Positions 2,300 through 8,808 of a stretch of DNA of 64,000 nucleotides are shown here, in pieces. The notes under the pieces were generated by a model that was not told the DNA's origin, did not search any database, and saw nothing but the letters and a program-made list of their open reading frames with translations. Every line of letters begins with the position of its first letter. The stretch's first letter is position 1. A program made the position numbers and the translations under genes. Source of the stretch: Bacteroidota bacterium (GTDB taxonomy: Bacteria; Bacteroidota; Bacteroidia; Chitinophagales; Chitinophagaceae); assembly GCA_013286305.1 (NCBI GenBank), contig JABDFW010000004.1, forward strand, positions 1-64,000. The letters are read 5' to 3'.

Positions 2300-3180
2300 T
2301 AATTGCCCCGCGCCCCGTCCGTACCGGCGCGGGCGGGCTTTAGGGCGGGGATAAAAGGCGCACCCCCCGGCTCTGTCCAAAACACAAAAAAATATAGAGG
2401 GCTAAAGTCCTCTATGTTGCATATATTTTGCCCCCGCCCTAAGGGCGCGGGGCAATTGATAGGATAAGTTTCGTCAAACTCTCTTGTTTTTGTATCGACT
2501 GGCTACAAAGCAACTACAGCTTCAATGATTGATTCCCCGGCTGTTTAGCTCCATAGGAGCGGCACGTTAGTAGCAGATAACAAAACAGATCCATACCCCA
2601 AAGCCCCGCCACGGTGGGGCTGGAATGCGTTAATTTATTACATTTATGTACTGTAATTGAAAGATGGGCATGGCGAAAAATACAAACAACGATAATGAAA
2701 TCCCTAAATGGCTTAGATATATTCTTATCATAGTTGCCATATTAGCGTTAATAAAAATATGTACAACATGGAGAGATCCTCAATCAAATAGTTGGCCTGT
2801 TCATTAAATAATGTATAAGTTCTTCCCTGTTGTTGTTGTGTCGCCTGACCAACAATATACAGCCTATTTTTTACGTGGCTCCTACGGAGCCAAAACATCC
2901 ACTTCTAAATATTTCTATAAACACGTTGCCCCGATAGGGCAAGGCATAAAGCAGACAAAACAAGTAGTAACCTGTTACCATCGCTCTGTAAGAGCGGCGT
3001 GTTTATAGAAAAATATATACAACGTCCCCGGCTGCTTAACTCCAGCGGAGTGGCACGTTAGTAGAAAAATAAACATTATACCCCTCGCCCAAAGCGCCGT
3101 AGGTGCGAAACAATAAAAATAAATGTGCCGCCCCGCCGCGGCAGGGCTGGGCTTACGCACGTAACAAAAGGGCTTAGCCA
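2300..3180. repeat. Cluster of short GC-rich Bacteroidota-style palindromic repeats
   Basis: Two near-identical units, CCCCGGCTGTTTAGCTCCATAGGAGCGGCACGTTAGTAG (~2536) and CCCCGGCTGCTTAACTCCAGCGGAGTGGCACGTTAGTAG (~3029), plus GGCTCCTACGGAGCC, GCCCCGCCACGGTGGGGC and others. Confidence 0.8.
2664..2807 (+). CDS. Possible small single-TM protein (47 aa), below the ORF-track cutoff
   Basis: Manual translation MGMAKNTNNDNEIPKWLRYILIIVAILALIKICTTWRDPQSNSWPVH*; one clear hydrophobic helix between repeat clusters. Confidence 0.4.
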   Translation: MGMAKNTNNDNEIPKWLRYILIIVAILALIKICTTWRDPQSNSWPVH

Positions 3181-3213
3181 TAAAAACGTACGGATGAGCA
3201 AGAGCAAATTCCT

Positions 3214-3835
3214 TAAGATCACAAAATGTGACCTTAGAGGATCAAAAACTCAACAACCTTTCTTCCTGTTATTATTAATTATTCATTCTTAATTATTAAT
3301 TCCTACCCCCTTCTCATTCCCTTTAAGATCACAGATCGTGACCTTAAAGAATCGGTATTTTCCGATGCGGTCACAATTTGTGACCGCATAGTTTATCAGT
3401 CAAACTCCTGCCTTCTTCTTTTAATTATCAATTATTAATTTTTAATTCCCATCACTCCTTATTTCTTAAATCCTATTCGCTCCCTTGCACCCCATTTTCT
3501 GTCTGCGGCCTTTTCGTCAAGCAGGTTTTCCATAGCATCATAAATTTGGTTTAGTTGTATATCATGCTCGCCTAACCGTTGTTTTAGCTCCAGTAATTGT
3601 TCCTTTAAGTCACTTTCGCGCAGCATTATCCGCCTTATTTCAACAAACGCCCGCATAATGGCAATATTCATGTTAATGGCCTTATCGCTGTTTAATACCC
3701 CACTGAGCATAGCCACGCCTTGTTCTGTAAAGGCGTAAGGGGTTATTTTGGTATTTCTTTTATTTTGGTATGCGGTCACAATTTGTGACTGCATGCCGGC
3801 CTGGTTTTCCAATGAGGTCACTGTCTGTGACCTCA
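3214..3835. repeat. Five palindromes sharing core G[A/G]TCAC-N5-GTGAC[C/T]
   Basis: 3214-3236, 3322-3348, 3365-3389, 3770-3794 and 3813-3835. Copies 3365-3389 and 3770-3794 match at 24 of 25 positions; the last two lie inside the ORF6N CDS. Confidence 0.9.
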
Positions 3836-4022
3836 AACTTTGCCATTCCTCTACAGTAAGCCGGAACATAAAATCTTTAGGAAACCTTTTTATATTGCGC
3901 ACAACAGCCTGGTTTAGCACTTTGGTGGCTACTTCGTACAGGGCTGCCAGGTCAAAATCAAGCATTACCCTTTCGCCCCTTATTTCGTATATCCTGTTTT
4001 GAATGGACTGTATTATTTGCAT
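3459..4022 (-). CDS. ORF6N domain-containing protein
   Basis: MQIIQSIQNRIYEIRGERVMLDFDLAALYEVATKVLNQAVVRNIKRFPKDFMFRLTVEEW...PYAFTEQGVAMLSGVLNS matches the ORF6N family pattern; start chosen internal to the listed ORF. Confidence 0.9.
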   Translation of the reverse strand: MQIIQSIQNRIYEIRGERVMLDFDLAALYEVATKVLNQAVVRNIKRFPKDFMFRLTVEEWQSLRSQTVTSLENQAGMQSQIVTAYQNKRNTKITPYAFTEQGVAMLSGVLNSDKAINMNIAIMRAFVEIRRIMLRESDLKEQLLELKQRLGEHDIQLNQIYDAMENLLDEKAADRKWGARERIGFKK

Positions 4023-4329: not shown

Positions 4330-4539
4330 ATGGAAGAGATTAAAGACTTGCAAACGGACGTTCTAATGGACATGCTTGCCGGGTACACTTCAGATTATTC
4401 AAGAATGATTAAAGAGGGATACGAGGGCAATGAATTTATCAACTGCCAAACAAAAATAGAAGAGATTCAATCAGAAATATTATTCAGGTCAAAGTTTGAG
4501 CAATTTAAACACAACGCAGAGGTTATGGCAGTTGTGTAA
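4330..4539 (+). CDS. Small uncharacterised protein, paralog of 8593..8808
   Basis: 69 aa MEEIKDLQTDVLMDMLAGYTSDYSRMIKEGY...NCQTKIEEIQSEI, aligned by eye to the second copy. Confidence 0.7.
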   Translation: MEEIKDLQTDVLMDMLAGYTSDYSRMIKEGYEGNEFINCQTKIEEIQSEILFRSKFEQFKHNAEVMAVV

Positions 4540-5365: not shown

Positions 5366-5484
5366 TAAATTTTTAGCCCGGGATTAATTGGGAAGTATTA
5401 CTAACAAAACAAAGCTTCGGCAGCGTGGCATATATGAATGAATGTGCCACCCCGCCGGGGCTTCTTTGTTTTATGCCCTGTGTC

Positions 5485-5822
5485 CCTTCAACATTCAAAA
5501 TCCTTTGTTCGTTGTTCGATATTCATTTCCTTGTTCAATATTCCATCCCTTCAACATTCAAAATTCCTTGTTCCTTGTTCGATATTCATTTCCTTGTTCC
5601 TTGTTCGATATTCCATCCCTTCAACATTCAAAATTCCTTGTTCCTTGTTCGATATTCATTTCCTTGTTCCTTGTTCGATATTCCATCCCTTCAACATTCA
5701 AAATTCCTTGTTCCTTGTTCGATATTCATTTCCTTGTTCCCTGTTCGATATTCCATCCCTTCAACATTCAAAATTCCTTGTTCCTTGTTCGATATTCATT
5801 TCCTTGTTCCTTGCTCGATATT
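5485..5822. repeat. Tandem array, 5 copies, period 70 bp (first copy 63 bp)
   Basis: Unit CCTTCAACATTCAAAATTCCTTGTTCCTTGTTCGATATTCATTTCCTTGTTCCTTGTTCGATATTCCATC; copies start at 5485, 5548, 5618, 5688, 5758. Confidence 0.95.
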
Positions 5823-5837
5823 TGTATTTACGTTTAT

Positions 5838-6602
5838 TCACCGCCTCTCAGCATCCAACAATCGTATTTGCATTTTATAGTTAGAAGGGAGTACAGCATT
5901 TTTTAAAACACCATCCAGCTTTATTTTGCGTGCGATTTTATATACCTGTACAACAGGATATAAAAAAGAAATATTGGTGAATGAAAGCAGTCTGCGCACC
6001 CGTGCCGGGATCACCAGCAATTGCGCCTGTTTTAAAAGCAGGTAACGCCCAATGCCCAGGTGTTTTCTATATTGTTTAAAAAGGTCTTTTGTATAATGGC
6101 TTTTAATAAGGTTTTGCTGCAGGTGGCCGGCACGCATCACTTCCCATTCGCTGTAAGTAGCGGGCAACCCTGTTAGCCCCATGCGTAAACCAATGGTATA
6201 AAATACAGTAAATGTTTCTTCCTTTTCTGGCACAGTTAGTTTGCGCTGCAGCAATTGATACGAGCGGATGGAATAATCAATCAGCATAAAAAGTACATCA
6301 CGGTAAGCCCAGTCGGGTATGGCAGCGCCACGCTGCTGCTCAACATTTTTATGTATGGCTGTAATACTGTCAATGCTGGCAAGGGCAGCATCATGTTCAG
6401 CAAAAACGATCCGTTGTGCATATGCTACGGTAGAGAATAACCTTGCAAGCGGGTCTTTGGGCAGGCGGCCTGTAAAATAAAGCCAGTCCACGGCTTTGTT
6501 TAAAGCAAATTCAGCAGAGGCTCCGGCAAAAATAAACAGTATGGTATCTGCACTGCCCCATATTTTACGCACAATACTATTTTCCGGTACAAAAGGTTGC
6601 AT
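5838..6602 (-). CDS. Oxygenase MpaB family (DUF2236) protein
   Basis: 254 aa with RKIWGSADTILFIFAGASAEFALNKAVDWLYFTGRLPKDPLARLFSTVAYAQRIVFAE. Confidence 0.75.
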   Translation of the reverse strand: MQPFVPENSIVRKIWGSADTILFIFAGASAEFALNKAVDWLYFTGRLPKDPLARLFSTVAYAQRIVFAEHDAALASIDSITAIHKNVEQQRGAAIPDWAYRDVLFMLIDYSIRSYQLLQRKLTVPEKEETFTVFYTIGLRMGLTGLPATYSEWEVMRAGHLQQNLIKSHYTKDLFKQYRKHLGIGRYLLLKQAQLLVIPARVRRLLSFTNISFLYPVVQVYKIARKIKLDGVLKNAVLPSNYKMQIRLLDAERR

Positions 6603-7164: not shown

Positions 7165-7310
7165 AATGCGCTGAATCCCGAAGGAGTGACATAAAAAAAT
7201 GTTTTAGATCTAAAAGCTTAATATTTATTGGTATGTCACCCCGTTGGGGTTTGTACCAGGATGTATTATAATTTGCTATAATAATATCATCCCTGCGGGA
7301 TTAAAGAAAT
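7165..7310. repeat. REP-like palindrome group
   Basis: AATCCCGAAGGAGTGACAT...ATGTCACCCCGTTGGGGTTT...ATCATCCCTGCGGGATT; GTGACAT/ATGTCAC inverted pair. Confidence 0.7.
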
Positions 7311-7338
7311 ATGCGTTATGGGTTTGTTTTCTTATTGC

Positions 7339-7397
7339 TTGTTCAATATTCAAATCCTTCAACATTCAAAATTCCTTGTTCCTTGTTCGATATTCAA
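7339..7397. repeat. Single dispersed copy of the 5485-5822 array unit
   Basis: TTGTTCAATATTCAAATCCTTCAACATTCAAAATTCCTTGTTCCTTGTTCGATATTCA. Confidence 0.9.
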
Positions 7398-7401
7398 CCC
7401 C

Positions 7402-8109
7402 CTACGACGGGTTTATTATAAAATGCACCCTATACACAAATGTTATGTCGTCAATGGGTATGTCCTGCGGGGGAATTTTGTCGTTGTAGCTTACAATTTT
7501 TATATACTCTTTGCCCTGCATTGAAGGGTGTATAAATTTTACCATGCTTTGGCCATAGCGGGTGTGTATGCCATATTTTTCGCCGTATATTATGCCGCGC
7601 TTGTCAATTATTTTACCTACTACAAATGCCTGGTTCATGATGAGGGGGTACATGCTGTCGCCGTTTACTTTTTCGCCGTGGTTGCAGCCGGGAAAAACGT
7701 TTACAGGCAAATGCGCAATAGGAGTTTGCATTTCGGGGTCGTCGCTGTACACCTGTATGGTGCCTGCTCGTGTGTTGCCCACATACACCGGAATATCTTT
7801 TACAGGCTCATCATTTTTTTTGGTGCGGCGCTCTTTTAAATAAGCGCCCTTTTGTTTTTCGGGCTCGGTAGTTTGTGGAGGCTGCAGCAGCATTTCGCCC
7901 TCGCCGGTTATAAGCCAGTTGCTGTTTATTTCGGGTATATGTTTTAGTATGTCGTTTACAATTTGTATGCTGGGCATATTGCCTTCGGTTTTTAGCCTGT
8001 TTATTTTTTCAGACGACTTGTAACCCAATAACTGGGTGGCAAACAGGTTTATACTGCCTATTTTTTTATACTTGCGTATTTGCTCAATGCGGTCAAAAAA
8101 GTCGCTCAT
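7402..8109 (-). CDS. S24/LexA-CI-like phage repressor
   Basis: 235 aa: N-terminal HTH-like region, then NGDSMYPLIMNQAFVVGKI...YGQSMVKFIHPSMQGKEYIKIVSYN as in S24 peptidase repressors. Confidence 0.85.
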   Translation of the reverse strand: MSDFFDRIEQIRKYKKIGSINLFATQLLGYKSSEKINRLKTEGNMPSIQIVNDILKHIPEINSNWLITGEGEMLLQPPQTTEPEKQKGAYLKERRTKKNDEPVKDIPVYVGNTRAGTIQVYSDDPEMQTPIAHLPVNVFPGCNHGEKVNGDSMYPLIMNQAFVVGKIIDKRGIIYGEKYGIHTRYGQSMVKFIHPSMQGKEYIKIVSYNDKIPPQDIPIDDITFVYRVHFIINPS

Positions 8110-8592: not shown

Positions 8593-8808
8593 ATGGAAGA
8601 TATTAAAAACATTCAAACTGATACACTTATTGACATGCTTGCTAAGTTTACCGCTGATTATTCAACAATGCTTAAGGAAGGGTATATGGATGATGAGCTT
8701 ACAAACTGTCAGCTAACCATTGATTCTCTTCAATCTGAAATAACGGCCAGGAAAAATATTGAGGCAACAATTTCTAAATATAAGTTTGTAAGTTCTGTTA
8801 CAAAATAA
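8593..8808 (+). CDS. Small uncharacterised protein, paralog of 4330..4539
   Basis: 71 aa MEDIKNIQTDTLIDMLAKFTADYSTMLKEGYMDDELTNCQLTIDSLQSEI. Confidence 0.7.
   Translation: MEDIKNIQTDTLIDMLAKFTADYSTMLKEGYMDDELTNCQLTIDSLQSEITARKNIEATISKYKFVSSVTK

Follow-up and report, generated by a model that had tools for sequence, protein, structure and literature searches.

The central segment of ORF6N genes carries a DNA palindrome whose symmetry is conserved and whose peptide is not, as is apparent from codon choice, covariation and independence of reading frame, and the whole central cassette that holds it is swapped between close ORF6N genes. A tentative reading, to which we assign a probability of about 45% from sequence comparisons, is that the palindrome constitutes a shape-recognised DNA unit, tied in cis to ORF6N, fixed within an exchangeable cassette and probably acted on by the ORF6N protein itself.

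The five palindromes with a GRTCAC-N5-GTGACY core that the first-pass annotation had described in the window, by which we mean the whole 64,000-nucleotide stretch of DNA analysed, are real. Their cores lie at 3217-3233, 3327-3343, 3369-3385, 3774-3790 and 3816-3832 and are the only exact matches in the entire assembly (3.58 Mb, 161 contigs, 70% complete), across which a reversed control pattern gave 0 matches. When one mismatch is allowed and both strands are counted, the window contains 10 core matches, against a mean of 0.2 and a maximum of 2 in shuffled windows. The outer arms, as had been noted, differ and yet pair: all five palindromes fold as DNA hairpins, with energies of -7.7 to -12.8 kcal/mol and z-scores of -3.5 to -7.9 relative to shuffles. 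Two copies lie in the ORF6N coding sequence, one being followed 14 codons (42 nt) later by the other in the same frame, and three lie 70-250 bp past the stop codon; the repeat reported between 3365-3389 and 3770-3794 is likewise borne out, spanning 25 bp with one position different. The features are as follows.

3459..4022, minus strand: ORF6N-domain gene, 187 aa, ATG at 4022-4020 (MQIIQSIQNRIYEIRG...); Pfam PF10543, E 5e-34
3733..3864, minus strand: variable central cassette of the ORF6N gene (RLTVEEWQ...KRNTKITPYA), holding both in-gene palindromes; its counterpart is block-exchanged between close homologs
3813..3835, centre 3824, minus strand: in-gene palindrome 1, gene strand TGAGGTCAC-AGACA-GTGACCTCA, encoding LRSQTVTS
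3770..3794, centre 3782, minus strand: in-gene palindrome 2, gene strand ATGCAGTCACAAATTGTGACCGCAT, one broken pair, encoding MQSQIVTA
3365..3389, no strand assigned: extragenic palindrome, perfect over 25 bp, ATGCGGTCACAATTTGTGACCGCAT, 70 bp past the ORF6N stop, with the arm type of in-gene copy 2
3322..3348, no strand assigned: extragenic palindrome, TTTAAGATCACAGATCGTGACCTTAAA, one mismatched pair, arm type as in LRSQxVxLK genes
3213..3237, no strand assigned: extragenic palindrome, TTAAGATCACAAAATGTGACCTTAG, core GATCAC-N5-GTGACC

The protein belongs to PF10543 (116.8 bits, gathering cut-off 27.8) and matches both the PADLOC phage-defence candidate PDC-S05 (E 1e-53, a profile match that makes a defence role a candidate one) and phage anti-repressor PHROGs (phrog_4792, anti-repressor, E 5e-27). 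Structure searches returned weak matches to DNA-binding folds only (Ski/Dachshund, MarR-like), none with E below 0.001, and neither a catalytic motif nor a relative of solved structure was found. In the AlphaFold2 model, the palindrome-coded residues form a helix end and a low-confidence loop that adjoins a conserved strand; as modelled, this loop can tolerate cassette change, and it may be the part that sets specificity.

Several further observations concern the surroundings of these genes. A terminase-small-like HTH protein (1705-2178) and an S24 peptidase-type regulator (7402-8109) lie near the ORF6N gene in the window, which suggests a prophage remnant. The non-coding stretch adjoining the palindromes contains two 75-nt direct repeats, 75% alike (2534-2608 and 3025-3099); the similar small ORFs at 4330-4539 and 8593-8808 (MEEIKDLQTDVLMDMLAGYTSDYS... 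and MEDIKNIQTDTLIDMLAKFTADYS...) are a paralogous pair; and the tandem and dispersed repeats at 5425-5906 and about 7244-7489, which code for FNIQNSLFLVRYSFPCS-like peptides in all three frames, are probably a non-coding repeat array. In other genomes, ORF6N relatives adjoin Fic, type I restriction, Abi and ArdA genes (L393, L794, L796, L793, L800), or stand directly behind the tyrosine integrase genes of conjugative-type elements (L160, L161, L180, L800, L793), with a palindrome between the integrase stop and the ORF6N start and, at L793, one between two integrase genes. On a Parabacteroides distasonis plasmid (L795:2995-4728), three tandem ORF6N genes about 25 nt apart each contain a different central palindrome.

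The palindrome is a general property of ORF6N genes. Among 204 distinct central segments (RFPxDFMF to FTEQG) drawn from public genomes, viral contigs and plasmids, and scored over pairs 2 to 13 from the palindrome centre with a threshold of at least 10/12, 189 reach the threshold, compared with 0/204 equal-length flanks upstream and 7/204 and 3/203 downstream. When synonymous codons are resampled according to the codon usage of the individual genes, the best score averages 5.5/8, against the 7 or 8/8 seen in 189/204 genes. The palindrome is about 20-31 bp long, usually with the skeleton GGTnnCAAWTTGnnACC, in which nn is complementary across the two sides; there is usually one unit per gene, occupying 8-10 codons, and for 142 of the 181 well-paired cases the distance from the anchor to its centre is exactly 39 nt. 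The same gene position is occupied in Bacteroidota, Omnitrophota, Elusimicrobia, Nitrospirae, Acidobacteria, Verrucomicrobia and Proteobacteria, as well as in Campylobacterota, Spirochaetota, Fusobacteriota and Bacillota; titles of sampled contigs also name Nitrospinota, Rokubacteria, Dojkabacteria and Gastranaerophilales, and plasmid records add Legionella, Sulfuricurvum, Treponema, Haliovirga and Butyrivibrio. Labels of MAG contigs can be wrong, and the spread over phyla is independent of any single one of them.

The core that had been called invariant is so among the five copies of the window; across homologs it changes symmetrically. In Treponema (Spirochaetota), an altered core retains a perfect dyad, AGGTCGAAAATTTCGACCT. 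A second ORF6N gene in the source genome (L389, G000:C33:16249-16500) carries a palindrome with other arms, AACTTGAGGAGCCAAATTGGCACCTCAAATT, and with serine AGC in place of TCA, and is invisible to the pattern originally noted.

Searches of the host genome and its relatives confirm a very strong association with ORF6N. Throughout 61 related genomes, every match with a central AAATT or AATTT is inside an ORF6N gene or at most 500 bp away, while those with a different centre show the scatter expected by chance, one genome having many of them. A degenerate 25-base pattern that represents the most frequent arm types, applied to 248 Bacteroidota genomes (roughly 0.9 Gb) in which ORF6N genes were found independently by the Pfam model, gave 27 sites, 24 of them in or at most 400 bp from an ORF6N gene, and its reversed control gave 0 sites. 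The palindromes are therefore largely confined to ORF6N loci and rare elsewhere. The remaining three sites are lone intergenic palindromes of the ORF6N type (L432, L442, L445), with no clear ORF6N in the surrounding 3 kb; at L445:1440-1560, two lone palindromes stand side by side. A viral contig (L288) has five GTCACAAWTTGTGAC sites with no ORF6N signature beside them. The idea that such palindromes are a general phage feature was set aside: arm extension in GTCAC-, GTCGC- and GTTCC-type 15-mers from IMG/VR is roughly as frequent as in an invented control palindrome, and hardly any of these matches are at ORF6N, which marks them as background; the shorter 13-mer matches outside ORF6N loci for the most part have no extended arms and are attributed to chance. 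The Rha domain (PF09669) proved unusable as a control family, since it has too few independent Bacteroidota members and the few placeable matches are ORF6N genes.

At the level of the encoded peptide, symmetry takes precedence over codon choice and amino acids, and even over the reading frame. Within the S-Q-x-V motif, serine is TCA in 131/131 cases and valine GTG in 130/131, compared with 21% of serine and 23% of valine codons elsewhere in the same genes; where alanine replaces valine, serine becomes TCG in 39/43 (9% elsewhere in the same genes), and where glycine (GGC) does so, serine can become AGC. Other codons in the palindrome are paired as well, AGG with ACC in 69 cases and AGA with ATC in 12. 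The dyad stays intact under replacement peptides such as RCQFGT (AGGTGCCAATTTGGCACCT), RFQFGT (AGGTTCCAATTTGGAACCT), RTQFAS (AGGACGCAATTTGCGTCCT), RCKNCT (AGGTGCAAAAATTGCACCT) and RFQIET. In a second class of genes, a palindrome at the same gene position is read in the +1 frame as V-T-N-C-D, with variants VITNCDN, VTICDQ, VANCDR and VPNWHQ (also VTNCD, VANCD and VPNWH); the third frame includes TGA. An RSQ-type peptide is common and stands at a fixed place, as would be expected if the protein needed RSQ-I/F-V-T and the palindrome were a by-product, but codon choice, the intact palindromes under RCQFGT, RFQFGT, RFQIET and RTQFAS, and the +1-frame class contradict this account, whose probability we regard as negligible and which is rejected. 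Homologs that keep the peptide and lose the palindrome had been named as an observation that would refute the interpretation of the palindromes; in homologs it is instead the palindrome that is retained, while the peptide and even its frame are lost.

Exchange of the segment is apparent between two close genes (L160 and L161), which are 94% identical in their N-terminal part, 98% in their C-terminal part and 30% in the central segment, and which each hold a palindrome in the centre, read in different frames. In 69 gene pairs whose flanks are 80-90% identical, the central segments agree at a median of 53%. A candidate for precise excision of ORF6N as a cassette, the one conjugative-type element without ORF6N (L799), turned out to be an ordinary deletion.

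Pairing between the arms exceeds the expectation under independence out to 15 bases per side and is at expectation by 16. Over 60 units, 86.3% of cells are complementary, against 65.3% after shuffling and 24-40% after sliding, and the covariation score is 0.512 against 0.158 shuffled (reached by 0/500 shuffles, which is not a probability because the rows are related) and 0.07-0.11 slid, a control that retains the relatedness. Among 91 non-coding copies, mismatches show no G.T excess, numbering 55 G.T and 67 A.C over k4-15, and pairing over k4-13 is 85% in outside copies and 91% in in-gene copies. Arm covariation without a G.T excess points to DNA, not RNA, and thus to recognition of a dyad in double-stranded DNA or of a DNA hairpin, or else to a mutational process at the DNA level.

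The same evidence bears on an RNA hairpin in ORF6N mRNA, acting in translational control or as an attenuator, a terminator or a type III-like antitoxin. In its favour are stable hairpins, with folding computed as DNA, both within the gene and on either side of it. However, a structured RNA element is expected to show G.U wobble on the transcribed strand and to match a curated RNA family, and the ORF6N palindromes do neither: G.U is not tolerated in the non-coding copies (41 G.T against 46 A.C over k4-13), the in-gene S-Q-x-V motif never takes the form TCG..GTG, which a single synonymous change of its most frequent form would give, and an Rfam search gave no match beyond chance, with one sub-threshold microRNA match. 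With wobble lacking, the RNA hairpin is rejected as the main reading and appears very improbable.

Further units accompany 59 of 197 ORF6N loci; most of them lie either 24-180 nt before the estimated start or 13-320 nt beyond the stop. At one locus (L363), four upstream copies follow each other at intervals of exactly 34 nt, each with a different arm type, and core arms also differ within a single locus or gene elsewhere (GTCAC and GTCGC at L130; GTGCC and GTCAC at L115). Ten comparable Flavobacterium-like loci carry from 0 to about 4 units at the site after the stop, and one of them alone has a 72-bp, two-unit insertion right before the ATG; in Segatella (L798), an extra copy is read in frame within an N-terminal extension. 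Several outside units combine two arm types in one hybrid, which is what recombination or deletion between cores would be expected to produce. Outside copies are thus gained, lost and hybridised between orthologs. Their arms agree with those of their own in-gene copy at 0.675 and with those of other loci, after permutation, at 0.622 (0/500). In the 91 extragenic copies, no conserved bases were found beyond k=13-15 and a GTAG tag is absent. That A.C mismatches are as frequent as G.T and that arms are hybrid is as expected if many outside copies decay without function.

In the reading we prefer, each ORF6N gene would carry an obligate self-complementary unit at a fixed place in its cassette, with optional copies or small arrays before the start and after the stop, and recognition of the unit would depend less on a fixed sequence than on its dyad or hairpin shape. 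The limitation to cis, the anti-repressor annotation and the obligate presence of the unit argue that the recogniser is most likely the ORF6N protein, a putative DNA-binding protein of KilA-N-like or anti-repressor-like character and probably a dimer, or a partner acting in cis. The in-gene copy could then be a site that travels with each cassette, and the outside copies could originate in the cassettes of other ORF6N genes and serve in regulation, in recombination or as decoys. Against this reading count the differing arms within a locus, so that no single cognate site is apparent, the failure to find a catalytic motif or solved relative, the signs of decay among outside copies, and template switching, which could by itself keep the arms complementary (PMC8794818). 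A stronger version, in which the protein, the obligate in-gene hairpin or dyad and the cis arrays of alternative hairpins form one self-contained system, with the cassette both encoding the recognition segment and serving as its DNA target and the arrays recording the palindrome types of other alleles, is a speculative and distinctly unlikely proposal; if true, it would represent a new kind of self-recognition or allele exchange, possibly in phage defence or in competition between mobile elements.

Autoregulated DNA-binding proteins have operators within their genes or promoters, that is, palindromic sites in and around their own gene, and an ORF6N dimer binding its own palindrome, with specificity and site drifting together so that arms differ but stay symmetric, would be an autogenous, sequence-specific operator of this kind. 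Binding by a homodimer would explain strict symmetry without a G.T preference, and the clustering of upstream copies 24-180 nt before the estimated start, the phage anti-repressor and ORF6N annotation, and the slightly better agreement of own-locus arms are consistent with it. Autogenous operators, however, keep their sequence among copies, whereas ORF6N copies keep symmetry and not sequence. The arm diversity within genes and loci (L130, L115, L363) argues against a plain operator, and many loci have no outside copy, so that this reading is rather unlikely. The earlier suggestion of autoregulatory or structural sites accordingly stands in part, and it is its plain sequence-specific form that fits poorly, given the differing arms and the small margin of own-locus over permuted agreement. 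The other suggestion, a mobile palindrome that inserts in frame, is likewise half sustained: outside copies are gained and lost from one ortholog to the next, as a mobile unit would be, whereas the central copy, found at one position in almost all ORF6N genes, is anything but an occasional insertion. A selfish palindrome of the Rickettsia RPE or REP/MITE type, tolerated in a permissive ORF6N loop and without ORF6N function, would agree with small units coming and going around the gene, with extra in-frame copies in the loop and in the N-terminal extension at L798, with the low-confidence AlphaFold2 loop and with the three lone intergenic copies; yet a near-universal central copy at a fixed position argues against a purely selfish insert, units gather largely at ORF6N loci and are not dispersed over genomes, and no tag or mobilising enzyme was seen, which renders it improbable. 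We consider similarly improbable a purely mutational account, in which an ancient palindrome is kept perfect by hairpin-templated (quasipalindrome) template switching with no selection for symmetry. Template switching creates and repairs perfect stems and gives double compensatory changes (PMC8794818), the arms of inverted repeats are homogenised in yeast coding genes (PMC8604942), and strict Watson-Crick pairs with free drift of the arms would follow. Asymmetric hybrid copies nevertheless persist outside the gene, outside copies pair worse than in-gene copies, and the fixed position in many phyla, the linkage to a cassette and the cis arrays are left unexplained; template switching may help to keep arms perfect, yet it does not account for the hybrids.

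A DNA symmetry that overrides codons, amino acids and frame at one site of a widespread, multi-phylum family is unusual, and a search of the open-access literature, in which five papers mention ORF6N, found no earlier report of palindromes in ORF6N genes. ORF6N proteins are common and poorly understood, annotated as anti-repressors and listed as defence candidates, and the palindrome offers a testable handle on their target. It is also a natural test case for distinguishing hairpin-templated mutation from selection as the force that keeps DNA palindromes perfect.

Inverted repeats attributed to template switching (PMC8794818, PMC8604942) share strict complementary arms and concerted change with the ORF6N palindromes, but they are scattered mutation events, whereas the latter occupy a fixed site in one family and have cis copies. 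RPEs of Rickettsia and Wolbachia (PMC2996958, PMC10969869) are likewise palindromic DNA read in frame within unstructured protein segments; they occur, however, at assorted positions in unrelated proteins, in contrast to one family, one site, nearly all members and two frames. PARCELs (PMC2996958) are coding sequences with dyad symmetry that are horizontally spread, and they differ in being 25-residue amphipathic tandem repeats of imperfect symmetry, unrelated to ORF6N, with no fixed single site and no cis arrays. The REPtron, comprising REP sequences and a TnpA-REP/RAYT gene, has short perfect or near-perfect palindromes with varied arms that border one protein gene, and in some genomes REP palindromes are concentrated near the TnpA-REP gene (PMC8266576). 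Its palindromes adjoin an HUH Y1 transposase, whereas the neighbour here is ORF6N, which has no such domain according to Pfam and no HUH relative in structure searches; they bear a GTAG (or CGTC) tetranucleotide at the foot, which the 91 extragenic ORF6N copies lack; and they are dispersed in many extragenic copies, in contrast to the five of the source genome, all at ORF6N, and the 24/27 sites in the 248 genomes. The ORF6N system, moreover, has one obligate copy within coding sequence. REPtrons, Rickettsia palindromic elements and PARCELs are thus the nearest known kinds, each of which fails at least one defining test, and ORF6N, as a protein gene accompanied by palindromes of its own, resembles in behaviour a REPtron that lacks the HUH transposase.
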